Assembly (NCBI RefSeq): GCF_028748145.1
Contig: NZ_CP118181.1
Span: forward strand, 379,433 to 443,432
DNA: 64,000 bases
Reading direction: 5' to 3'
Origin: Entomospira culicis
GTDB lineage: Bacteria; Spirochaetota; Spirochaetia; WRBN01
The stretch's first letter is position 1. Each line of letters opens with the position of its first letter. The translations under genes and the position numbers were made by a program. The notes beneath the pieces were generated by a model, which was given only the letters and a program-made list of their open reading frames with translations, was not told the DNA's origin and made no database searches. Shown piece by piece: positions 6,792 through 58,063 of the stretch.

Positions 6792-6848
6792 AATAAATTG
6801 TTAATGATAATTGAAAAAGACTTTGGAGCAATCCAGAGTTCATAAATC

Positions 6849-8388
<1,540 letters not shown>

Positions 8389-11191: not shown

Positions 11192-11328
11192 GAATTCTGT
11201 ATATGCGATTGTATGATAAAAATTTGAGTTATTGCCTAGCTTAAGACGATACTCAAAAGAAGGATCGTGCAGGCGCTGGGTATGGCTTAGCGGAAGCGTT
11301 CAATCTATGTGAGCAGAGGAGATAAGAG

Positions 11329-14300
11329 ATGCGACCAGTATTGGAAGATGGAGCGTTGATTGGAATTATCAACCGTGGTGAGGCGGCGATGCGTTTCATC
11401 CGCGCACTAAAAGAGTACAATCTCAAACATAAGACGAATTTTAGCAGTGTTGCTTTCTATATTGACGAAGAAGAGCAGGCGCTCTTTGTGCAAGAGGCCG
11501 ACTATGCTTATCCTCTATCGAGCTTTAGCCAAGAGCCGGTGGCAGAGAGTGCCTATATTTCGCACGAGCTACTGCTCTACGCTCTCACCAAAAGTGGCTG
11601 TAATGCCGTTTGGGCGGGCTGGGGTTTTGTCAGTGAGGATACGATCTTTGTCTCTAAGCTTGAGCAGGCTGATTTGATCTTTTTAGGCCCTTCCTCGGCG
11701 AGTATGTCTTCTTTGGGCGATAAAATCAATAGTAAGGCGTTGGCCGTGCATAGTAATGTCGCGGTAACACCTTGGTCAGGGGAGTCGATCACTTCGCTGG
11801 AACACGCCAAGGAGTGGGCAGATAAGATTGGTTATCCGGTGATCCTCAAGGCAAGTAATGCGGGGGGGGGGCGTGGCATTCGGTTTGTATGGCAAGCGAG
11901 CGATCTTGCTGATGCTTATCATTCGGCACGTGAGGAGACGATTCGTTTTACAGGCACGGATATTCTCTTTATGGAGCGATTGGTAGCCACGGCGCGCCAC
12001 TTTGAGGTGCAGGCGATTGGCGACTATCACGGGAATGTGAAGACCTTTGGCGTGCGCGACTGTAGTGTGCAACGGCGTAATCAAAAGATTATCGAAGAGA
12101 CCCCACCTATCAACGTCGACCCTGATGTGCTTTTGGAGATGGAGGCTTCGGCAAAGCGTCTTTTGGAGCAGGCTAAGTATGAGGGCGCAGGCACGGTCGA
12201 ATTTATTTACGATGTGGAGCGTCAAGCCGCCTACTTTATGGAGGTCAATGCGCGTCTACAGGTGGAGCATCCGATTACCGAGGAGCTCTACCAAATTGAT
12301 TTAGTGGCAGCGCAAATCGATATCGCCCAAGGCAAGAGCATCGCCCACTATGATCGCACGCCATATGGTCATGTCATGGAGCTTCGTCTTAACGCCGAGG
12401 ATGCCATGCAAGAATTTAAGCCAGCTCCAGGCTTTGTGCGCTACTTTAAGCCGGCCGCGGGCTTGGGAGTTCGGGTTGATTCAAGCATTGCCACGGGCTC
12501 GACGATCTCTTCTAAATTTGATAGTATGGTAGCCAAGATTATCGTGCGTGCAAGCGATCGTTCCGAGGCGATAGCTCGACTCAAGCGCGCCATCGAGGAG
12601 ACCTTTATCGCGATTAAGGGTGGAACTACGAACCGACTCTTTGCGCTTGAGTTGTTGAATCATCCCAAGGTGATAGCTGGTGGGGTGAGTACACGTTTTG
12701 TGGAGGAGTATCTATCGCAACGTACCATTTCGATGGATTATGCGGTGCATGCGCTTTTGGTGGTGGCTGCCGAAACTTATCTCTTGCGTGAGGAGCGTGA
12801 GGAGCAGATCTTTGTGCAAGAGGTGCGCTCTTTGGGGCAACCGCGTGATGTTAAGCTCTTTAAGGAGCAATCGATCGTCTTAACCTTGGCGCAACAGCGC
12901 TATCAGTTAGAGGTGCGGGCGCTTTGGGCGAATCTCTTTGTGGTTCGTTATAATAATCAGCAGTATCTTTACACCTATCAGCGTGAGGCGCATCAGCGGG
13001 CGCTTCTGGGTTTTGCTGGCGATTCCATGACGGTGCAGGTAAGCGCCAGTGGCATGCTTTGGCGTATCGAGTTGGGGCAGAGTTCTTATCTTGTGGATAG
13101 TGATAGCTATGGCATGATTGCCGCCGCCTCGCCGGGGGTGGTGCTTTCGCTTGCGGTGGAGGTGGGGAGCCTTGTACGTAGTGGCGATCTTCTGCTTTAC
13201 ATGGAGGCGATGAAGATGGAGATGCCTGTCTATGCCTCGGTGGATGGCGTGGTCAGTAGCATTAAGGTTGACGTGGGTCAGCAGGTGATGGCGGGTGCGA
13301 TTTTGATGAAGATTGAAGAGCAGTCGCAAGGGGAGGCGCAAACGCAAACCGTTAAGAGCGATATCTTTGCTGGTCTCTTTGGCGAGATGCCTCTGGATGA
13401 GCTGGAGGTGCAGGCGCTGATGAGTGGTTATGTTGCTTCACCGAGCATTATTCATGCGGTTACTGCCGAGAGCGAAATTTTGGCCAGCGCGCTTCCTTTT
13501 TACGTGATGACGCACCAGCTCTTTTCGCATGAGCCGATAAGTGATAGCAACGCAATTTCGTACCGCGAAGGATTTTTACGCCTCTTGCGTGGGTTGCCGT
13601 TAAGCGAGGCTACAGAGGAGTTGCAAGCATTGATGACTTGCTTAGCTAGCCTGTATGGCAAACGCTACCAAAAGCTCGAACGTGCAGAGATTTTGGGGTT
13701 GGGCTATCGTCTCTATCAGGCATACGCACGCAAGGCAGAACAGGAGAAAGTGTTACAATATCTCTTTGTGCATGTTAAAGATATTAATCTAAACGATCGC
13801 TTTATGGTGGATGATCTGCAGGCGATTGTGAAGATGCACAACTCGCTCTCGGTGGTGGCGCAAGACTTTATCTATCATCACTTTACGACGCAAGAGCTTA
13901 AGGCGCTGGCTAGCGATAAGGTGGTGCGTTTTCAGCGCGTTTTTGAGATGATGAGCCAGTACCCTCGGCATAAAGATGAGCTAATGCCTTTGGCAATGAA
14001 GTATGGACCAGTGAGCGAGATGGAGCTCTTTGCCCGTATTGATGGCGGGATTTTTGAACACTTGGGCATGGAGATTTTGGCTAATCGACTCTTTTTAGGT
14101 CGAGCGATGGTGGTGGGATTTTATCGTCCAAATTATTTCGAATTTACCTACCAAGATTACGACGCGCACGCAGTACGGGCCTCGATGATTGCCTATCAAA
14201 GTATGGAGCGTGATGCGCAATTATTGTTGGAGAGTCAAGCCGAACACCTCCTCCTAATCTGCCATGCGCATACGGCACAGTCATTGGCGCAAGTGCTTGA

Positions 14301-16635
14301 GCACTTAGAGGCAAAGGCATCAACCTCTTTAGTACGTATCACCTTTTTGAGTACAGAAGCTGGAGCCATGGGTTTACGCTATCAGCATTACTATCGAACC
14401 CCTGAGGGTTGGCAGATTGACCCGATCTACTTAGATTTTAATCTCTTTCATTTTCATCAGCTACGTCTCTATCGCTTAGCTCCTTTCGCGTTAAAGCACC
14501 AAAAGTTGAGCAGTACGATGGGTTTGATTTTGGCGCAGGCGCACGAGCAAGCCAAAGATGAGCGCTTTATTCTTTATATGAGTGTGGAGGCACTTCGGCC
14601 GATTATGGGCGAGCGAGTCCATCTTTTGGGCTTGGAAGAGTCGCTTTCGGAGGGAGTTTTTGCATTAAGACAGGCGCAATTGCAACGTAAAAAGCGTCTT
14701 TACTGGAATCGTATTCTTATCTTCGTACAACAGCCTATCGATGCACTGATGGAGGAGATTGGGCAGTACAGCCTCGATCTTACCCAAAAATTACTTGATA
14801 CGGAACTGGGTATTGAGCGTGTTTCGGTGTATATCACGCATCTTAATGGTGAACAAGAAGAGCTGACGCTGACGCCTTCGGGATCGATTCAGCAGATGAG
14901 TTTGGTACGACGTGTGCCCAAGACCGAGCCTCTTAAGTTGCAAAATCACTATGATAGTAAGGTGATGCGCGCGCATGCTCGCGGTCTCTTCTATCCATAT
15001 GAACTGATCAAATTTTTGGAGAATGGGGATTTTGGTCTGCCCAAGGCACGCTTTGTGGAGTATGATCTGGTGGACGATGCTAGTTTTAGGTTGCAAGTGG
15101 TGGAGCGTGATATCGCCTTGAACCGTGCGAATGTGGTGGTTGGGTCTATCGAGCAAGAGAGCCAAGGGGTGCTTTATCAACGGATGATGATTCTCTCGGA
15201 TGCCACGCAAGATATGGGGTCGCTTGCTGAACCAGAGGCGCGTCGGGTGATTGCGGTGTTGGATATGGCCAGTGAGCTGGGCTTGCCGGTGGAGTGGTTA
15301 CCCTTGAGTTCGGGCGCGAAGATTACGCTAGATTCTGGTACGGAGAATCTGGATTGGACGGCGGCGGTCTTACGGCGCATCATCGAATTTACCCAAGCGG
15401 GGGGCGAGATCAATATTATTGTCAGTGGAATCAATGTGGGCGCGCAGTCGTATTGGAATGCCGAAGCCACGATGTTGATGCACACGCGTGGTCTCTTGAT
15501 TATGACTGATATGGGCAGTATGTTGCTTACGGGTAAGCGTGCGCTGGACTTTGCTGGTGCGGTTTCGGCAAGCGACAACTTAGGGATCGGCGGGGCACAG
15601 GCAATCATGTTGCCCAATGGTGAGGCGCAAATCTACGCACCCACGCTCAAAGAGGCCTATCATATTTTGTTACGTCATTATGCGACTTTTTATGCGAAAC
15701 AAGGAGAAAAGGTTGCCAAGCTGGTTAGCGACGATCCTGCGACGCGCGATATCGGGTTGATGCCTTATGAAGATGCCTTTGAAGCGGGATTCCAGAAGAT
15801 TGATGATATCTTTAGTGAGGATCTTAATGGCGAGCGGAAGAAACCTTTCTCGATGCGGCAAGTGATGCGCGCCCTCTGCGATCAAGATAGCGAGCCTTTG
15901 GAGCGTATGGCAATGATGGCCAATGCGCAAGGCGTGGTGGTGTGGCAGAGCCGGATTGGGGGGTATGCTTGTGGGTTGATTGGTATTGAGAGTCATCCGC
16001 AGGCGCGTCATGGACAGATTAGTGGCGATGGCCCTGCAACCTATTCGGGTGGAACGCTCTATCCTTTGGGAAGTAATAAGTTAGCACGCGCGGTTAATAT
16101 CTTCTCCGATCGGTTGCCTTTGGTGATTTTAGCGAACTTGTCGGGCTTCGATGGCTCTCCTGAATCGCTACGCTTGCGTCAACTGGAGTGGGGCGCCGAG
16201 ATTGGTCGGGCGATGGTCAACTTTAAAGGTCCTATCCTCTTTGTGGTTACCTCGCGTTATCATGGTGGGGCGTATGTTGTCTTCTCTAAGATGCTCAATA
16301 GCCAGATTACCACGTATGCATTGAGTGGGGCGTTTGCCTCGGTGATTGGCGGAGCGCCCGCAGCTGCGGTGGTCTTTCCGGCGTTGGTGGCGAAGCGAAC
16401 CCTTGCGGATGAACGCTGGCAACGGGCGCATCGGGAGAAGCAGTTAGATTCGCGTCAGATGAGCGATCTTTATCAAGAGATTTACTTGGAGAAGCAACAA
16501 GAGCTGGCGGTGGAATTCGATCAGACGCACAATATTGAGCGCGCTAAGTCGGTTGGATCGATCGATAAAATTATCGAACTTGCTGGCTTACGCCCAAGCG
16601 TGGTACAATTTTTGCAAGATTTTTATCAAAAGTAA
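11329..16635 (+). CDS. Single-chain acetyl-CoA (acyl-CoA) carboxylase: BC-BCCP-CT fusion
   Basis: One 1768-residue polypeptide appears to carry every activity for making malonyl-CoA. Residues ~5-460 are biotin carboxylase: an ATP-grasp glycine loop (ASNAGGGRGIRFV) and MEVNARLQVEHPITEE. Residues ~590-668 are the biotin carrier, with EAMKMEM placing biotin on Lys629. About 600 residues without clear motifs follow (~690-1290), comparable in place to the central region of eukaryotic ACC. The carboxyltransferase occupies ~1290-1755, with LPLSSGAKITLDSGT, GISGDGPATYSGGT-like glycine turns and FVVTSRYHGGAYVV. Most bacteria use separate AccA-D subunits. ATG 11329 follows AGGAGA. The gene has its own promoter and terminator. 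Acetyl-CoA is the likely substrate, but propionyl- or longer acyl-CoA cannot be excluded. Confidence 0.88.
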   Translation: MRPVLEDGALIGIINRGEAAMRFIRALKEYNLKHKTNFSSVAFYIDEEEQALFVQEADYAYPLSSFSQEPVAESAYISHELLLYALTKSGCNAVWAGWGFVSEDTIFVSKLEQADLIFLGPSSASMSSLGDKINSKALAVHSNVAVTPWSGESITSLEHAKEWADKIGYPVILKASNAGGGRGIRFVWQASDLADAYHSAREETIRFTGTDILFMERLVATARHFEVQAIGDYHGNVKTFGVRDCSVQRRNQKIIEETPPINVDPDVLLEMEASAKRLLEQAKYEGAGTVEFIYDVERQAAYFMEVNARLQVEHPITEELYQIDLVAAQIDIAQGKSIAHYDRTPYGHVMELRLNAEDAMQEFKPAPGFVRYFKPAAGLGVRVDSSIATGSTISSKFDSMVAKIIVRASDRSEAIARLKRAIEETFIAIKGGTTNRLFALELLNHPKVIAGGVSTRFVEEYLSQRTISMDYAVHALLVVAAETYLLREEREEQIFVQEVRSLGQPRDVKLFKEQSIVLTLAQQRYQLEVRALWANLFVVRYNNQQYLYTYQREAHQRALLGFAGDSMTVQVSASGMLWRIELGQSSYLVDSDSYGMIAAASPGVVLSLAVEVGSLVRSGDLLLYMEAMKMEMPVYASVDGVVSSIKVDVGQQVMAGAILMKIEEQSQGEAQTQTVKSDIFAGLFGEMPLDELEVQALMSGYVASPSIIHAVTAESEILASALPFYVMTHQLFSHEPISDSNAISYREGFLRLLRGLPLSEATEELQALMTCLASLYGKRYQKLERAEILGLGYRLYQAYARKAEQEKVLQYLFVHVKDINLNDRFMVDDLQAIVKMHNSLSVVAQDFIYHHFTTQELKALASDKVVRFQRVFEMMSQYPRHKDELMPLAMKYGPVSEMELFARIDGGIFEHLGMEILANRLFLGRAMVVGFYRPNYFEFTYQDYDAHAVRASMIAYQSMERDAQLLLESQAEHLLLICHAHTAQSLAQVLEHLEAKASTSLVRITFLSTEAGAMGLRYQHYYRTPEGWQIDPIYLDFNLFHFHQLRLYRLAPFALKHQKLSSTMGLILAQAHEQAKDERFILYMSVEALRPIMGERVHLLGLEESLSEGVFALRQAQLQRKKRLYWNRILIFVQQPIDALMEEIGQYSLDLTQKLLDTELGIERVSVYITHLNGEQEELTLTPSGSIQQMSLVRRVPKTEPLKLQNHYDSKVMRAHARGLFYPYELIKFLENGDFGLPKARFVEYDLVDDASFRLQVVERDIALNRANVVVGSIEQESQGVLYQRMMILSDATQDMGSLAEPEARRVIAVLDMASELGLPVEWLPLSSGAKITLDSGTENLDWTAAVLRRIIEFTQAGGEINIIVSGINVGAQSYWNAEATMLMHTRGLLIMTDMGSMLLTGKRALDFAGAVSASDNLGIGGAQAIMLPNGEAQIYAPTLKEAYHILLRHYATFYAKQGEKVAKLVSDDPATRDIGLMPYEDAFEAGFQKIDDIFSEDLNGERKKPFSMRQVMRALCDQDSEPLERMAMMANAQGVVVWQSRIGGYACGLIGIESHPQARHGQISGDGPATYSGGTLYPLGSNKLARAVNIFSDRLPLVILANLSGFDGSPESLRLRQLEWGAEIGRAMVNFKGPILFVVTSRYHGGAYVVFSKMLNSQITTYALSGAFASVIGGAPAAAVVFPALVAKRTLADERWQRAHREKQLDSRQMSDLYQEIYLEKQQELAVEFDQTHNIERAKSVGSIDKIIELAGLRPSVVQFLQDFYQK

Positions 16636-30343: not shown

Positions 30344-31624
30344 CTAAACGACCGTACCCCGATTGATGGAGTATTGCTCGTAGAGTTTGTCCACAATGAT
30401 GGTTTGTAATATCTCCACGACACGATAGACCTCTTCATAGGTGTTATAAAGAGCGATAGGCGCTAGGCGAATAACATTGGGCTCTCGGAAGTCTGGAATC
30501 ACGTGAAGATCGCGTAAGGCGATACTAATGCGATAGGCTTCTTCATGCTCTAAAGAGACATGTCCGCCTCTAAATTGATCCTCACGCGGGTTACCTACGG
30601 TATAGCCAAAGGGCTTGAGTTTATGATCGATAAGATACATGAGGTAGGCGGTAATATGGAGTGATTTTTGCCGAATCTGATGAATTCCTGCCTCTTCAAA
30701 GATCTGCAGTGCGCCTAAGAGCGGGGTCAGCGAGAAGATGTTGGGGGTACCAATTAGCCAGCCGTTGGCATCGATATCTTGATCGAAGGTGTGATTGAGT
30801 TGGAACTGGGTGGCATCTTTGTTGCCAAACCAGCCCCGTAGCCCGGCTTTTTTGCCAAAGTGTTTTTTATTGATATAGAGACCACCTGAGGCACCTGGTC
30901 CACCATTAATGTACTTATAGTTGCACCAGACGGCAAAATCAGCATCGATAGCTTTGAAGTCGTGGGGGATAGCTCCCATTGAGTGCGCTAAATCCCAGCC
31001 GACGAGAATACCTCGTTGATGTGCAGTCTCGGTAATCGTTTGCATATCCAAAAGTTGGGCGCTACGGTAGAGAACTGATGGAAGCCAGACAATAGCCACG
31101 TCCTCGCGCATGGCATCAATGATATCTTGGGTTGCGATGGTTCGGCTATCGCGACTTTTCACGGTAATGAGCGCATCTTTTGGATCTAAATTTTTCAACT
31201 CAATGAGACTTTGCACGGCATAAATATCGCTGGCAAAGTTAAGTTCATCGACGACAATTTTATAGCGCTCTTTCGTTGGGTGATAAAACGTGGCCAATAC
31301 TTGGTGAATGTTTGCGGTAATGGTGCCCGTGGCAATGATTTCCTGCGCATCAGCATTTAACAGAGGGGCGGTCTTTTTGGCGATAAGACGGGATATATTG
31401 AAGTATAAGCCATCTTTAGTGTTCCAAATTTTAATGCCTTCCTTTTTCCAATCCTCCAAACTGGTCAGTAAGCTCTCTTGGGCATCTTTGGAGGCCATGC
31501 CTAGGGAATTCCCGTCCATGTAGATCTCATTCTCTACTTTAAAAAAGCGCTTTTGGAATGGGGCTAAGGGATCTTGTTGATCTAAGTTTTTGGCAAATGA
31601 CACATCGTCTTTAAATTGATACAT
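30344..31624 (-). CDS. kynU: Kynureninase
   Basis: The 426-residue PLP enzyme has the full set of kynureninase motifs: EIYMDGNSLG near 35, GWDLAHSMGAIPHD, DFAVWCNYKYINGGPGASG with the PLP lysine, LRGWFGNKD, LIGTPNIFSLTPLLGAL and FREPNVIRLAPIALYN. It cleaves L-kynurenine (or 3-hydroxykynurenine) to anthranilate (or 3-hydroxyanthranilate) plus L-alanine in the cytoplasm. ATG 31624 follows AAAGGAG. It is cotranscribed behind an MFS carrier, and alanine dehydrogenase is encoded divergently nearby. No other tryptophan-degradation or NAD-synthesis gene is in view, so a catabolic rather than biosynthetic role is inferred. Confidence 0.93.
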   Translation of the reverse strand: MYQFKDDVSFAKNLDQQDPLAPFQKRFFKVENEIYMDGNSLGMASKDAQESLLTSLEDWKKEGIKIWNTKDGLYFNISRLIAKKTAPLLNADAQEIIATGTITANIHQVLATFYHPTKERYKIVVDELNFASDIYAVQSLIELKNLDPKDALITVKSRDSRTIATQDIIDAMREDVAIVWLPSVLYRSAQLLDMQTITETAHQRGILVGWDLAHSMGAIPHDFKAIDADFAVWCNYKYINGGPGASGGLYINKKHFGKKAGLRGWFGNKDATQFQLNHTFDQDIDANGWLIGTPNIFSLTPLLGALQIFEEAGIHQIRQKSLHITAYLMYLIDHKLKPFGYTVGNPREDQFRGGHVSLEHEEAYRISIALRDLHVIPDFREPNVIRLAPIALYNTYEEVYRVVEILQTIIVDKLYEQYSINRGTVV

Positions 31625-31672
31625 TGTGCTTTTCTCCTTTTTATTTTATGGGATAAATATCCCAGAGCATAC

Positions 31673-32881
31673 CTACTGTCCCTTTTTGGATTGCATAACG
31701 TTGTAGATGATCATCCCCATGAGTCCGATGATAGCCACGCCTGCTAGCAAGGTAAATCCCCTAGACCAGCTAGTGGAGAGGATCACTTTGATGGTTAGGG
31801 GGGATCCAACGACAATCATAAAATAATACATTGTATTGACCAGTGAGATATGATAGCCTGTAACTTCTGGTTTTTTCGAGAGGGCGGAGGCTAAGATCAT
31901 CACCGCAGTGTAAGAGAAAGAGATCCCAAAAGAGATAGTAAACCACCAACCAATATAAATGCTGGTGGAGAGATGCGCGTCTGTTATCCAGCTGTAAAGA
32001 GGCACGGCAATCAAGACGCTTATGAGCATTAAGATGAATCCTAACGCTCCAATGATGACAGGTTTTTTGCTCTTTTCAATGATGATACCGGCAAGTACCC
32101 CAGAAATAATGCCCGAAAGACCAAAGGTGCTGGCGTAAGCATTGGCGAGATGGTCGGGCAGTAGGTAGAGATCTTTCATCATAAAAGGCCCGATTTGGAT
32201 CATGGTGAAGAGAATAAAGGTCATCGCCCCATGGCTTAGTGTTAAGATCCAAATTTTTTTATCACTTAGCGCCTGCGTAAGAAAATTTTCAGGCTTATGC
32301 TTGGTATTTTTTTCTGTCCCAATCGGTTCTAACACAAAGATAAAGAGTACCATAGTTAGTAGCGAGAGCACGGTTAGATAGATCCAGATACTACGAAAAC
32401 CCGTTAGCGGAATGAGTGTCGTACTAATATTAAAGATGATCAACTGGGCTAGGGCGGAGAATGTGCCAAAAAAGCCTAATGCCGTGCCACTGCCTTTGTC
32501 GGCAAACCAATGACGAATATATACCATCGCCACCATGAGATACATGGCAAACGAGATGCCTTCAACTGCGCGTGAGAGGAGAAGAAGTGGATAGTTACTA
32601 ATGAAAACATATCCTAAGAGATTGCCTAACGCGAGCACGGCCATTAATAAGACAATTAAACGTTTGGCGCCAATTTTTGCCATCAACATTCCACCTGGGA
32701 TGGCCAGAAAAATTCCTGATATCGAAAAAATAGAGGATAGCAGTTGGATATCGCCTTTATCGACACCTAAAGAGTTACTGAGTGCATCCAGAACTAGGGT
32801 GGGCGCAATTTTGAGTTGACTCATAGAGATGACAAAGGCTCCAAAGTAAATGAACGAAAATTTTAGCCATCGTTGATACAT
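31673..32881 (-). CDS. MFS transporter in the kynureninase operon
   Basis: From ATG 32881 (GCGAGG five bases upstream) the protein is 402 residues with twelve predicted membrane helices in two halves and a charged central loop (EPIGTEKNTKHKPEN). The motif-A position reads GGMLMAKIGAKRLI, as in CynX/NIMT-like carriers. It is first in the operon, 48 bp before kynU, so kynurenine or another aromatic amino acid is a reasonable guess for its substrate; sequence alone does not say whether it imports or exports. A 16-base palindrome (TGGGATA..TATCCCA) lies between it and kynU. Confidence 0.85.
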   Translation of the reverse strand: MYQRWLKFSFIYFGAFVISMSQLKIAPTLVLDALSNSLGVDKGDIQLLSSIFSISGIFLAIPGGMLMAKIGAKRLIVLLMAVLALGNLLGYVFISNYPLLLLSRAVEGISFAMYLMVAMVYIRHWFADKGSGTALGFFGTFSALAQLIIFNISTTLIPLTGFRSIWIYLTVLSLLTMVLFIFVLEPIGTEKNTKHKPENFLTQALSDKKIWILTLSHGAMTFILFTMIQIGPFMMKDLYLLPDHLANAYASTFGLSGIISGVLAGIIIEKSKKPVIIGALGFILMLISVLIAVPLYSWITDAHLSTSIYIGWWFTISFGISFSYTAVMILASALSKKPEVTGYHISLVNTMYYFMIVVGSPLTIKVILSTSWSRGFTLLAGVAIIGLMGMIIYNVMQSKKGQ

Positions 32882-32958
32882 AAACGCCTCGCTTGAAAAA
32901 TAGTTTATAGTGTAAAAGGAGCGACCGAATAAATACGAAGTAATCATTCAATATCTTC

Positions 32959-53677: not shown

Positions 53678-56600
53678 CTAGCTTTGCCCCATGGCCGAGG
53701 AGCCACTCTCTGGATTTTCTGCAAGGGCACTCGGGGATGCGTCATTGGCGTGTAGACTCTTTTGGTTGTCATGCGCGCCCTTCACCAAGAAGCTCAAGCG
53801 GTTAATAATATTGACCTCGCTGGAACCTGCATCCATATCCAAGAAGAGGAGGTTGAGGTTGGGGTAGAGCATCTTGAGGCGCTTCTCCATCCCCTTAGCG
53901 ATGATGTGGTTGGCAATACAGCCGAAGGGTTGAAGGCAAAGCACGTCCGTCGTGCCCTCGTTGACGAAGGTGATGATGTCGCCGGGCAAGAGCCAGCTCT
54001 CGCCAAACTGTAAGACGAGATCCATGCCTTTGGCGGCGTTCTTGGCGATGTGGCGGATGTCGTGAATGGGGCTGATGGCAAGCTTACTCTTAGCAAGTAG
54101 CTTGTTGGCCTTTTTGACATAATGTAAAATGACAGGTGCTGCTGCTTTGATTGCAAGAAGTTCTGCCCACGAATGATTTTCAACGTTAGCAGATTTGTTG
54201 TATTTCTGCTGGACAATGGTGGATAAAAAGAAGTTGACCAGCGGTGGAAAGTCGGGCTCAATACCATTTTTAATGAGCCATTGAGCGGTGTAATTATTGC
54301 TAAATTCATTAAACTTGACAAAAATCTCGCCAACAATACCCACTTTCGGAAAGCGCCCCTCTTTTACCTGGATGGTGTTAAATTCGGCAACTGCTTGCTC
54401 AATTAAGCCGTAGATGCGGTTCGGGTGCTTGTAGTCGATGATCTCCTCTCCTGCAGCTAACCACTTATCACTCATTGCTTTAGCAGTGCCATGCTCTTTT
54501 TCGTAGGTGGCATAGGTCCAGTAGAGCTTAGCGATGACATCGCCATAAAGGAGACCCAAAAGCGAGGTGAGCATGAAGGAGGTTGGGTTAAGCTTAAAGC
54601 CGGGTTGACGGTTGAGTTGTCCAGAGTCGGCGTGGGTGTTGATGGCAACCACAGGAACATCGGCAAACCCTGCGCTAATGAGCGCTTTTTTGAGCATGCT
54701 GATGTAACTACTGGCTCGGCACTGTCCACCGGTTTGGGTGAGGGCAACGGCTACATTGTCGATAGCATACTCGCCACTCTGTAAGGCCTTCACCAAGTCG
54801 CCAATCACGATGGTAGCAGGATAGCAGATGTCATTATTGGTGTACTGTAGCCCGACATGGATACTTTGACGATCGGGTTCGGGTAAGATCTTTAGGTTGT
54901 AGCCCTCATCACGCATCGACTTGACAATAAAGCGCGTGTAGAAGGGCGAGAAGTCTGGGGCGAGGATGATACGATCTTTATCGATCTCTTCAAAATTTTT
55001 GGTAAAGGCGCGCTCTTTCTTTTGTGGTTGAAAATTCTCTCCGCGCATGGCGACGCTCTCAATCATACTGCGGATACGTAGACGCACTGAACCAGGGGAG
55101 GTGATTTCGTCGACCTTGATGACGGTGGGCGACTTGCCAAAGCTTGCCAAGAGTGCCTTCACTTCGTCGATGGTTACGGCATCGGGGCCACAACCAAAGC
55201 TGTTGATGTGGATAACCTCGACGTTGGGTTGGCTACCTGCCCAGATGGCCGCGTCGTAGATGCGATTGGGGAAGGTCCACTGGGTCAAGACGTCAACGCC
55301 ATGTAGCCCAACGCGTTCAGCCGGAGGCAGAGAGTCCTCGGTGAGGACATCGATACCTAGCGCGCTGATCATCTCGGGGAGCTTGTGGTTAATGAGGGCG
55401 TCAACATGATAGGGGCGACCCAAGAGCATAATAAGGAGACGCTTCTCTTCGCGGGCAACATTGATGACGGCTTGAGACTTCTCTTGAATAGCCTTTCGGT
55501 ACTGCACGTCGGCGGCTACGGCTTTGTCAAAGGCTTCGTCAAAGATCTTCTTATTGACCCCTAAGTGCTCATGAAAGTAGCTCCAGAGACCTTTTTTGAA
55601 GAGCTTCTTGTCGTTCATGGCGAGTGATGGCTTATCAAACGGGATACCGTGCTTGGTTTCGGGCATCATCGCCGCGCTAATAACCTCGGGATAGCCAGCC
55701 ACAACCGGACAATTGTACTCATTGGCACTGGCAGTGTCGTCAAATTCGGCCTTTTCATAGATGATCATCGGGTAGAAGATGCGGTCGACCTTCTTCTCCA
55801 CCAAATTGATGATGTGTCCGTTGGTAATTTTGGCGGGATAGCAGATATTTTCGCTCATTACGGTGGCATAACCCTTTTCGGCTAGGCTGACGGTGGAGGG
55901 ATCGGAGAGGACAACGTTGAACCCACTCTCCTCAAACATGGCGTGCCAAAAGGGAAAGTTATCCCACATATTAAGCACGCGAGGAATACCGATGGTGGGT
56001 CGCTTGGGCTGTTCGTCGAGAGGCTTTACCCCTGCCCAGAGGAGGTCGCGCTTGAATTGGTGCATATTAAAGCCCTGATGCGAGGAGATGAGCTTATTAC
56101 TAAAGATCTTTTCACACTTGTTCCCGCTGTAGAATTTGCGTGTTTTGGCCTCTTCGTCGGTAAAGTTCATCTGGGTGATACGGCAGAGATTTTCACAACC
56201 TTTACAGGTGAGGGTCTGACGTGAATACTTTTGGGCTTCGGCAAGGTTATCTAGCCCGATAAAGGTGGATGGCTTTGCCTCTTGGTGATGGCGCTCGATG
56301 GCAACGAGGGCAGCACCGTAAGCGCCCATCAATTCGCAAATATCGGGGCGCACTACTTTTTTGTTGATAACTTTTTCAAGGGCGCGTAAGACTGCAGGAT
56401 TTTTGAACGTTCCACCTTGCACCACCACGGTGTCGCCAAGGAGGGACATATCGGTAATTTTAAGCACCTTGTTGAAGCAGTTCTTAATGACCGAGTAGGC
56501 CAAGCCGGCAGAGATATCGCCTTGAGTTGCGCCTTCGCGGAGGGCTTGCTTTACCTTACTATTCATAAAGACGGTACAGCGCGTGCCTAGGTCGCAAGGC

Positions 56601-58063
56601 GCGTTACTGTAACAGGCCTCTTGGGCGAAGTCTTGTACCTTCATGGAGAGACCCTTGGCAAAGGTTTCGATAAAGGAGCCCGACCCTGAAGAGCACGATT
56701 CATTGAGCTCGAGGTTGTTGATGATGCCATGCTCGATAAAGATGGCCTTCATGTCTTGCCCACCAATATCGAGGATAAATGAGACATCGGGCGCAAAGTA
56801 GGAGGCCGCGGTGTAGTGAGCGATGGTTTCGACCAGCCCATCATCAAGCTTAAAGGCAAAGCGCGTGAGATCTTCCCCGTAACCAGTCGTCGCGGTGCGA
56901 ATGAGGTTGGGCTTGTCTACCCCGAGGGCTTTGAGTTGCTCGTACACCGAGGTGAGACCACGGGTTACCGCGTCTACGGGGTTACCATTGTTCGGATGGT
57001 AGTCGCGCACGACGATAGCACCATGCTCATCACAGATGACGATTTTGGTGGTGGTCGATCCCGAATCGATGCCTAAAAAGAGCTTCGTTTCGTTGGTGAG
57101 CGTGCTAAGATCAAATTTCTCTACTTGATATTGACGTTCGTACTCTTGATTCCACTGGGCAAATTCATCGGCAGAGGTAAAGAGTGGCTCAAGGCGTGTA
57201 TCGAGGGTGATGTTCTCCTCTTTAATGTTGGTGATACGCGCGATGAGGGTAGAAATTTTCGCAACTTCTTTCTCGGGAGAGGTATCTAAGGCGGCACCAA
57301 GGGCGGGGAAGACCTCGCTGGATTTGGTGGAGATGACGTCAAATTCATTGATGTTGAGGATGTCGTAGAAGGCGCGCTTGAGGGCGGGCATAAAGGTGAG
57401 CGGCCCACCAGTGAAGATAATCTTGGGCATGATGTCGACACCACGGGCAAGGGCATTAACCGTTTGATAGGCTACTGCGCGAAAGATGCTCGCTGCGATG
57501 TCGCTGGGTTGAATGCCACGGGCGATGAGGTTTTGTACGTCGGTTTTAGCAAAAACACCACAGCGCGAGGCAATGGGATAAGTGTTCTGGTGTTGATCGG
57601 CCAAGGCACTTAGCTCTTCTACAGGATAGCCTAGTAGGGTTGCCATTTGGTCGATAAAGGCACCTGTACCACCGGCGCATGCGCCGTTCATGCGGATATC
57701 GGGCTTCATCTCTTGGTTGAAGAAGATGATTTTTGCATCTTCTCCGCCTAGGTCGATAAGGGTGCGACACTCTGGGTAGAGTTCCTTGGCTACGCCTGCA
57801 GCAGCGACAACCTCTTGGACGAAAGGAATACCGGTCTTCTCGCTAATCCCCATTCCCGCTGTTCCGGTGATGGCGACGGAGAGGTCGATATCGCCAAGTT
57901 CGGTGAGCACCTCGTGGAGAATGCCCAGAATGGTTGCCACGACCTCGGTGTTGTGGCGACGGTAGCGCGTGAAGATCTGCTTATTTTCTGGATCGAGAAG
58001 AACAATTTTTGCTGTCGTCGAACCGATGTCAATCCCAAGTCTAAAATGTTGACTAATCATCAT
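53678..58063 (-). CDS. Giant acyl-CoA dehydratase activase-related protein
   Basis: The 1461-residue protein is a fusion. Two BadF/HgdC-type ATPase domains come first: residues ~8-265 (LGIDIGSTTAKIVLLD, NGACAGGTGAFIDQ with the iron-sulphur Cys) and ~325-590 (LGIDSGSTTTKIVICD, NESCSSGSGSFIETFA). A Cys-rich segment follows (CKGCENLCRI), then a DUF2229/2-hydroxyacyl-CoA dehydratase-like half with IGIPRVLNMWDNFPFW, SENICYPAK, NDICYPATIVIGDLV and TQTGGQCRASSYI. Related short activases use ATP to inject an electron into radical dehydratases. In this long form substrate and partner are unknown, and no separate dehydratase lies near. Its iron-sulphur chemistry implies anaerobic or micro-oxic life. 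It leads a transcript with mutM. Confidence 0.88.
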   Translation of the reverse strand: MMISQHFRLGIDIGSTTAKIVLLDPENKQIFTRYRRHNTEVVATILGILHEVLTELGDIDLSVAITGTAGMGISEKTGIPFVQEVVAAAGVAKELYPECRTLIDLGGEDAKIIFFNQEMKPDIRMNGACAGGTGAFIDQMATLLGYPVEELSALADQHQNTYPIASRCGVFAKTDVQNLIARGIQPSDIAASIFRAVAYQTVNALARGVDIMPKIIFTGGPLTFMPALKRAFYDILNINEFDVISTKSSEVFPALGAALDTSPEKEVAKISTLIARITNIKEENITLDTRLEPLFTSADEFAQWNQEYERQYQVEKFDLSTLTNETKLFLGIDSGSTTTKIVICDEHGAIVVRDYHPNNGNPVDAVTRGLTSVYEQLKALGVDKPNLIRTATTGYGEDLTRFAFKLDDGLVETIAHYTAASYFAPDVSFILDIGGQDMKAIFIEHGIINNLELNESCSSGSGSFIETFAKGLSMKVQDFAQEACYSNAPCDLGTRCTVFMNSKVKQALREGATQGDISAGLAYSVIKNCFNKVLKITDMSLLGDTVVVQGGTFKNPAVLRALEKVINKKVVRPDICELMGAYGAALVAIERHHQEAKPSTFIGLDNLAEAQKYSRQTLTCKGCENLCRITQMNFTDEEAKTRKFYSGNKCEKIFSNKLISSHQGFNMHQFKRDLLWAGVKPLDEQPKRPTIGIPRVLNMWDNFPFWHAMFEESGFNVVLSDPSTVSLAEKGYATVMSENICYPAKITNGHIINLVEKKVDRIFYPMIIYEKAEFDDTASANEYNCPVVAGYPEVISAAMMPETKHGIPFDKPSLAMNDKKLFKKGLWSYFHEHLGVNKKIFDEAFDKAVAADVQYRKAIQEKSQAVINVAREEKRLLIMLLGRPYHVDALINHKLPEMISALGIDVLTEDSLPPAERVGLHGVDVLTQWTFPNRIYDAAIWAGSQPNVEVIHINSFGCGPDAVTIDEVKALLASFGKSPTVIKVDEITSPGSVRLRIRSMIESVAMRGENFQPQKKERAFTKNFEEIDKDRIILAPDFSPFYTRFIVKSMRDEGYNLKILPEPDRQSIHVGLQYTNNDICYPATIVIGDLVKALQSGEYAIDNVAVALTQTGGQCRASSYISMLKKALISAGFADVPVVAINTHADSGQLNRQPGFKLNPTSFMLTSLLGLLYGDVIAKLYWTYATYEKEHGTAKAMSDKWLAAGEEIIDYKHPNRIYGLIEQAVAEFNTIQVKEGRFPKVGIVGEIFVKFNEFSNNYTAQWLIKNGIEPDFPPLVNFFLSTIVQQKYNKSANVENHSWAELLAIKAAAPVILHYVKKANKLLAKSKLAISPIHDIRHIAKNAAKGMDLVLQFGESWLLPGDIITFVNEGTTDVLCLQPFGCIANHIIAKGMEKRLKMLYPNLNLLFLDMDAGSSEVNIINRLSFLVKGAHDNQKSLHANDASPSALAENPESGSSAMGQS

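Follow-up and report, generated by a model that had tools for sequence, protein, structure and literature searches.

Single-chain acetyl-CoA carboxylase (ACC) is already known in Actinobacteria (PMC6491548), and the open reading frame (ORF) described here is thus not unique. Livieri et al. (2019) showed that SACE_4237 of Saccharopolyspora erythraea is an acetyl-/propionyl-CoA carboxylase that forms homodimers and is essential; its central region is eukaryote-like, and acetyl- and propionyl-CoA are used with similar efficiency (PMC6491548). The orthologues listed in that paper came from Actinobacteria only, and an actinobacterial origin was proposed (PMC6491548). The central domain has been called unique to eukaryotic ACC (Hunkeler et al. 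2016, PMC4833862). In the 2011 survey of Lombard and Moreira, ACC subunits were not found in three Spirochaetes, and the Spirochaetes, the Thermotogales and most Actinobacteria were without them (PMC3199775). The paper on the genus Entomospira mentions no carboxylase (PMC7554043).

The carboxylase chain and its setting

The window, i.e., the whole stretch of 64,000 nucleotides from the spirochaete Entomospira culicis that was analyzed, contains a long ORF with the following features:

11315..11322, + strand: Shine-Dalgarno-like AGAGGAGA, 6 nt before the ATG of the ACC ORF, read from the sequence
11329..16635, + strand: ORF of the predicted single-chain, eukaryote-type acetyl-CoA carboxylase, 1768 aa; ATG start, open for 1768 codons
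11359..12708, + strand: biotin carboxylase (BC) domain, aa ~11-460 (Pfam, alignment)
11611..11625, + strand: WAGWG motif, aa 95-99; the same in yeast ACC, HPGYG in AccC, AccA3 and PCC-alpha
12709..13110, + strand: BT-like region, aa ~461-594, between BC and the carrier domain; continuous match to yeast ACC and PCC-alpha
13111..13320, + strand: biotin carboxyl carrier (BCCP) domain, aa ~595-664 (PF00364)
13213..13215, + strand: Lys629 in EAMKMEM, predicted biotinylation site, invariant in the 21-sequence alignment
13330..14973, + strand: central (ACC_central) region, aa ~668-1215 (profile to PDB, Pfam in relatives, fold search)
15046..16632, + strand: carboxyltransferase (CT) domain, N and C halves fused, aa ~1240-1768 (PF01039; best PDB matches are eukaryotic ACC CT)
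16261..16263, + strand: His1645 in RYHGGAYVV, aligned to yeast CT Arg1954 (ELRGGSWVV)

Pfam places the BC N, ATP-grasp and C domains at residues 12-460, BCCP at 602-662 and CT at 1288-1763, all far above cut-off. The window protein was aligned end to end with 20 spirochaete relatives (L033-L052). A sequence-only reading of this DNA had claimed that BC, BCCP (with Lys629) and CT are carried on one 1768-residue chain, which is borne out by the Pfam matches and the alignment. Residues K132, K174, K253, E291, E305, N307, R309 and R353 of the BC domain are present and match K116, K159, K238, E276, E288, N290, R292 and R338 of E. coli BC, respectively.

The ORF stands alone, with a divergent rny-ymdB pair upstream and a convergent pseudouridine synthase gene downstream. 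Its GC3 of 0.56 resembles that of the neighboring genes (0.46-0.62), so nothing marks the gene as recently acquired; the GC content of the window is 46.7%, compared with 45.8% in strains of E. culicis. Elsewhere in the window, a complete 16S rRNA gene (6846-8383, + strand, Rfam 1548 bits) is unlinked: no 23S, 5S or spacer tRNA gene adjoins it in the window. Its closest match in the plasmid collection is Treponema saccharophilum, at 79%. A giant protein of 1461 aa (53678-58063, - strand), with two BadF/BcrD-type ATPase stretches and DUF2229, is like 2-hydroxyacyl-CoA dehydratase activase. A kynureninase-like gene (30344-32947, - strand; KYNU_C, Aminotran_5), unexpected in a 1.77-Mb spirochaete genome, adjoins a gene for an MFS-type transporter.

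Central region and ancestry of the chain

The central region had been described from the sequence as ~600 residues without a visible motif. It measures ~550 residues here, and its featureless appearance was confirmed: searches of Pfam, NCBIfam and PDB with the single sequence named nothing in residues ~668-1215, and hmmscan of the window protein alone gave no ACC_central (PF08326) match even at E 10. Matches to DUF1161 and Lin-15B in this region were below their own cut-offs and were judged to be chance. The region is conserved across the 20 spirochaete relatives. When the central regions of the 21 sequences are combined in a profile (A2), the best PDB match is yeast ACC (5i6e, E 3.4e-13), and only eukaryotic ACC central domains are matched below E 0.1. 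PF08326 is found in 8/21 family members (best E 1.9e-8), the window member being one of those without a match.

Comparison of a predicted structure with the eukaryotic ACC central domains had been proposed as a check, and the predicted fold indeed matches eukaryotic ACCs. AlphaFold2 models were made without templates for the central region plus CT and for the central region only. The larger model (mean pLDDT 72) retrieves full-length yeast ACC from the PDB at E 3.8e-43. For the smaller one (pLDDT 75, pTM 0.67), the best 30 PDB matches are all eukaryotic ACCs, with E values from 1.7e-17 to 2e-5, and the first unrelated structure appears at E 1.7e-3 with a probability of 0.35. TM-scores to the full-length chains are moderate (0.45-0.52 by query) and the overall rmsd is large, which in the models would mean that the string of folds is the same and the inter-domain angles are uncertain. 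Judging by the profile and the models, the central region of the ORF and the central domain of eukaryotic ACC are homologous.

The full-length family profile also finds a yeast ACC (5csk, E 9e-154) as its best PDB match, ahead of every PCC, MCC, PC and AccC chain. All complete bacterial members (78/78) share W-x-GWG in BC with yeast, at the position where AccC, AccA3 and PCC-alpha have HPGYG. In the BC tree, yeast ACC and the bacterial family are separated from AccC, AccA3 and two PCC-alpha sequences with a support of 100/97; yeast, the sole eukaryotic row, lies outside the bacterial members (94/90) on a long branch of 2.5. The separate CT tree, the other phylogeny suggested by the earlier reading, agrees, with two fungal CT rows outside the bacterial members; it is saturated and rooted by choice and, with branches as long as 5-8 changes per column, it was left out of the eukaryote placement. 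In this tree, the window gene pairs with its counterpart from a genome of the same family, and sequences from spirochaetes and other bacteria surround the pair. Viral contigs scanned with yeast CT for additional eukaryote-like sequences yielded nothing. Over the family, the pairwise distances for BC, BT, BCCP, central region and CT correlate at 0.81-0.96, which fits a chain inherited as a unit. Domains, profile, fold and BC tree thus uphold the claim that the order BC-BCCP-central-CT is that of eukaryotic ACC.

Two other histories would yield the same architecture. Bacterial and eukaryotic chains might have been fused, and have gained a central region, independently of each other, and the saturation of the CT tree together with the very long eukaryotic branches leaves some room for this. 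Such convergence is nevertheless very improbable, given the homology of the central domain by profile and fold, the identical domain order and a W-x-GWG motif that AccC, PCC and AccA3 do not have. Even less credit can be given to the idea that the spirochaete recently took up its gene from a eukaryote, such as an arthropod host. The architecture is of eukaryotic type and the genome is possibly arthropod-associated, but the gene has a same-family sister amid bacterial sequences, its GC3 is that of its surroundings, and the eukaryotic sequences included, all on long branches, fall outside all bacterial members; host transfer was rejected on this sampling. “Eukaryote-like”, as the sequence-only reading had it, holds for architecture, central domain and sequence ancestry and fails as the description of an isolated case, since there are hundreds of bacterial relatives. 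The term should not be taken to imply acquisition from a eukaryote, which is disfavored by the one eukaryotic BC row and the two CT rows outside the bacterial family. An evenly balanced proposition is that bacteria invented the fused central-domain ACC long ago, that it is spread over many of their phyla, and that eukaryotic cytosolic ACC was inherited whole from it. If this is true, the donor need not be an actinobacterium, unlike in the 2019 proposal (PMC6491548), and the central domain did not originate as a eukaryotic regulatory add-on.

Metabolic role and spread among bacteria

The genome (1.77 Mb in 4 contigs, 95.8% complete) contains one BC C-domain and one PF01039 carboxyl-transferase locus, both in the ACC ORF. 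Searches of the genome found neither AccA (PF03255) nor methylmalonyl-CoA mutase. Separate accA-accD genes, which would have spoken against the proposed role, thus did not turn up: AccA is absent, and BC and CT each occur once. An accA gene may conceivably lie in the uncovered part of the genome, although the close relative G001 is also without AccA. There is one gene of the biotin ligase (BPL) family, and a fabH-fabD-fabG-fabF-fabZ-fabV cluster is complete at C1:~1300244-1305972. As a FabD/FabH type II fatty acid synthase needs malonyl-CoA and the ORF is its only possible biotin-dependent supplier, the ORF is almost certainly an acetyl-CoA carboxylase. It is very probably the only one of this organism. 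Single-chain enzymes with a central domain, the type to which it belongs, are also those of the eukaryotic cytosol and of some Actinobacteria.

Substrate, dimer, biotinylation and essentiality of the window protein are inferred. BC would use ATP and bicarbonate to form carboxylated biotin on Lys629, BCCP would swing over to the fused CT, and CT would transfer the carboxyl group to acetyl-CoA. The resulting malonyl-CoA, from which fatty acids are built, would feed the type II pathway of FabD, FabH and FabF. As in yeast ACC, the central domain might be a scaffold without catalytic function that holds BC, BCCP and CT in position within a homodimer.

As the S. erythraea enzyme takes propionyl-CoA too, homology does not settle which substrate is used. 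The similar efficiency of that relative with both substrates (PMC6491548) would allow for a carboxylase of propionyl-CoA, or of several short-chain acyl-CoAs, that mainly produces methylmalonyl-CoA. Such an enzyme is nonetheless improbable in a genome without methylmalonyl-CoA mutase, where an intact FASII cluster could draw malonyl-CoA from no other biotin-dependent enzyme; mixed acyl-CoA specificity as such is compatible with the acetyl-CoA carboxylase reading. Malonyl-CoA may also be supplied by a malonate-based route. That the ORF is an LCC has next to no probability: it is indeed a single-chain bacterial carboxylase, but LCC has CT at the N-terminus, BC-BCCP at the C-terminus and no central domain (PMC6491548, PMC4833862). 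This candidate was rejected on domain order, as the ORF has an N-terminal BC and a central domain.

The acetyl-CoA carboxylase reading is also consistent with the distribution of the gene. Among 395 sampled Spirochaetia genomes, a clear relative of the single-chain ACC is present in 61 and a true AccA, counted only at E < 1e-22, in 128; matches at E 1e-4 to 1e-15 were discounted as cross-matches to PCC-beta-type CT (open frames of ~500 aa). AccA occurs in 4/61 genomes with single-chain ACC versus 124/334 others (odds ratio 0.12, p 4e-7, uncorrected for relatedness). Such near mutual exclusion is what would be expected of two enzymes that stand in for each other in one function. Both enzymes are found only in G078, G111, G150 and G198, all of one genus; locus L046 belongs to the same spirochaete genus.

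Scanned with profile A3, a collection that represents each GTDB species by one genome gave at least 579 loci encoding relatives. Among the best 80 are loci from Spirochaetota, Bdellovibrionota, Myxococcota, Acidobacteriota, Actinomycetota, Pseudomonadota and a Neomarinimicrobiota bin; several of these come from metagenome bins, and odd single placements may be binning errors. The ACC of the Neomarinimicrobiota bin (L067) nests among spirochaetes in the CT tree, by transfer or through a mis-binned contig. Relatives are also present on replicons filed as plasmids in Nonomuraea, Embleya, Tsukamurella and Gordonia (plasmid-collection matches H1-H5), including one of 174 kb in Gordonia and one of 386 kb in Tsukamurella, and might be transferred by this route. 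The trait is easily overlooked when metabolism is reconstructed, because public records describe such genes only as “carboxyl transferase domain-containing protein”.

A literature search, with subscription journals mostly outside it, found no paper on single-chain ACC in spirochaetes, Acidobacteria or Myxococcota. As far as the literature found shows, the spirochaete and multi-phylum spread is new, as are the histidine in place of the eukaryotic catalytic arginine and the explanation for the ACC subunits missing from spirochaetes in the 2011 survey. For many spirochaetes, single-chain ACC is the answer to those missing subunits (PMC3199775), and the central domain is present in many bacterial phyla, contrary to its description as unique to eukaryotes (PMC4833862). 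That the enzyme is so widely spread among bacteria, and that it and AccA nearly exclude each other, are the most interesting results; both bear on the origin of eukaryotic ACC. The bacterial family opens this origin, and the role of the central domain before phospho-regulation, to direct test, and small bacterial homologues may suit structural study more easily.

Comparison with described carboxylases

The eukaryotic cytosolic enzymes (yeast ACC1, human ACC1/2) have the same domain order, BT, central domain, fused CT and W-x-GWG. The chain had been estimated to be ~500 residues shorter than eukaryotic ACC; against the yeast PDB construct (2218 residues), the difference is ~450, spread over all regions. 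By the match coordinates, the full-length spirochaete profile (1835 positions) falls short of the yeast chain by ~28 residues at the N-terminus and ~112 at the C-terminus; in between, it lacks ~50 residues in BC, ~107 between the end of BC and the end of the central region, ~24 ahead of CT and ~59 inside CT. The window protein is ~67 residues shorter still than this profile, mostly in the central region (525 versus a median of 581), which spans ~525-580 residues in the bacterial family. Complete bacterial members measure 1746-2087 aa, and the window protein is the second shortest.

The CT active site differs as well. Yeast Arg1954, presumably one of two arginines that bind the substrate carboxylate, is replaced by histidine in 101/101 bacterial relatives checked, within the motif R[YF]HGGA[YF]VV. 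The position of yeast Arg1731 is Lys or Arg within the family (Lys1331 in the window protein). Actinobacterial members also have the histidine, so ACC activity probably tolerates it; inhibitor binding and the range of substrates may be affected.

The SACE_4237 type is likewise a single chain of ~1800-1900 aa in the order BC-BCCP-central-CT, with BC and CT grouping with eukaryotic ACC, and members from Pseudonocardiaceae, Micromonosporaceae and other Actinobacteria are among the relatives found here (L101, L111, L118, L130). Mean identity of the window protein to the actinobacterial members is ~53% in CT, 44% in BC and 19% in the central region. In contrast to that type, the host here is a spirochaete without another carboxylase, and the whole spirochaete group branches apart. 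The four-subunit ACC (AccA, AccB, AccC, AccD), the usual form in bacteria, catalyzes the same reaction with the same BC/BCCP/CT chemistry, but its subunits are separate and lack a central domain, whereas the window ORF is one chain with a fused-type CT in a genome without AccA. PCC and MCC consist of a BC-BT-BCCP alpha chain and a separate CT beta chain; the ORF has a fused CT and a central domain, and its genome has no second CT. LCC, finally, also unites BC, BCCP and CT on a single chain, in a different arrangement from that shared by the window ORF and eukaryotic ACC.
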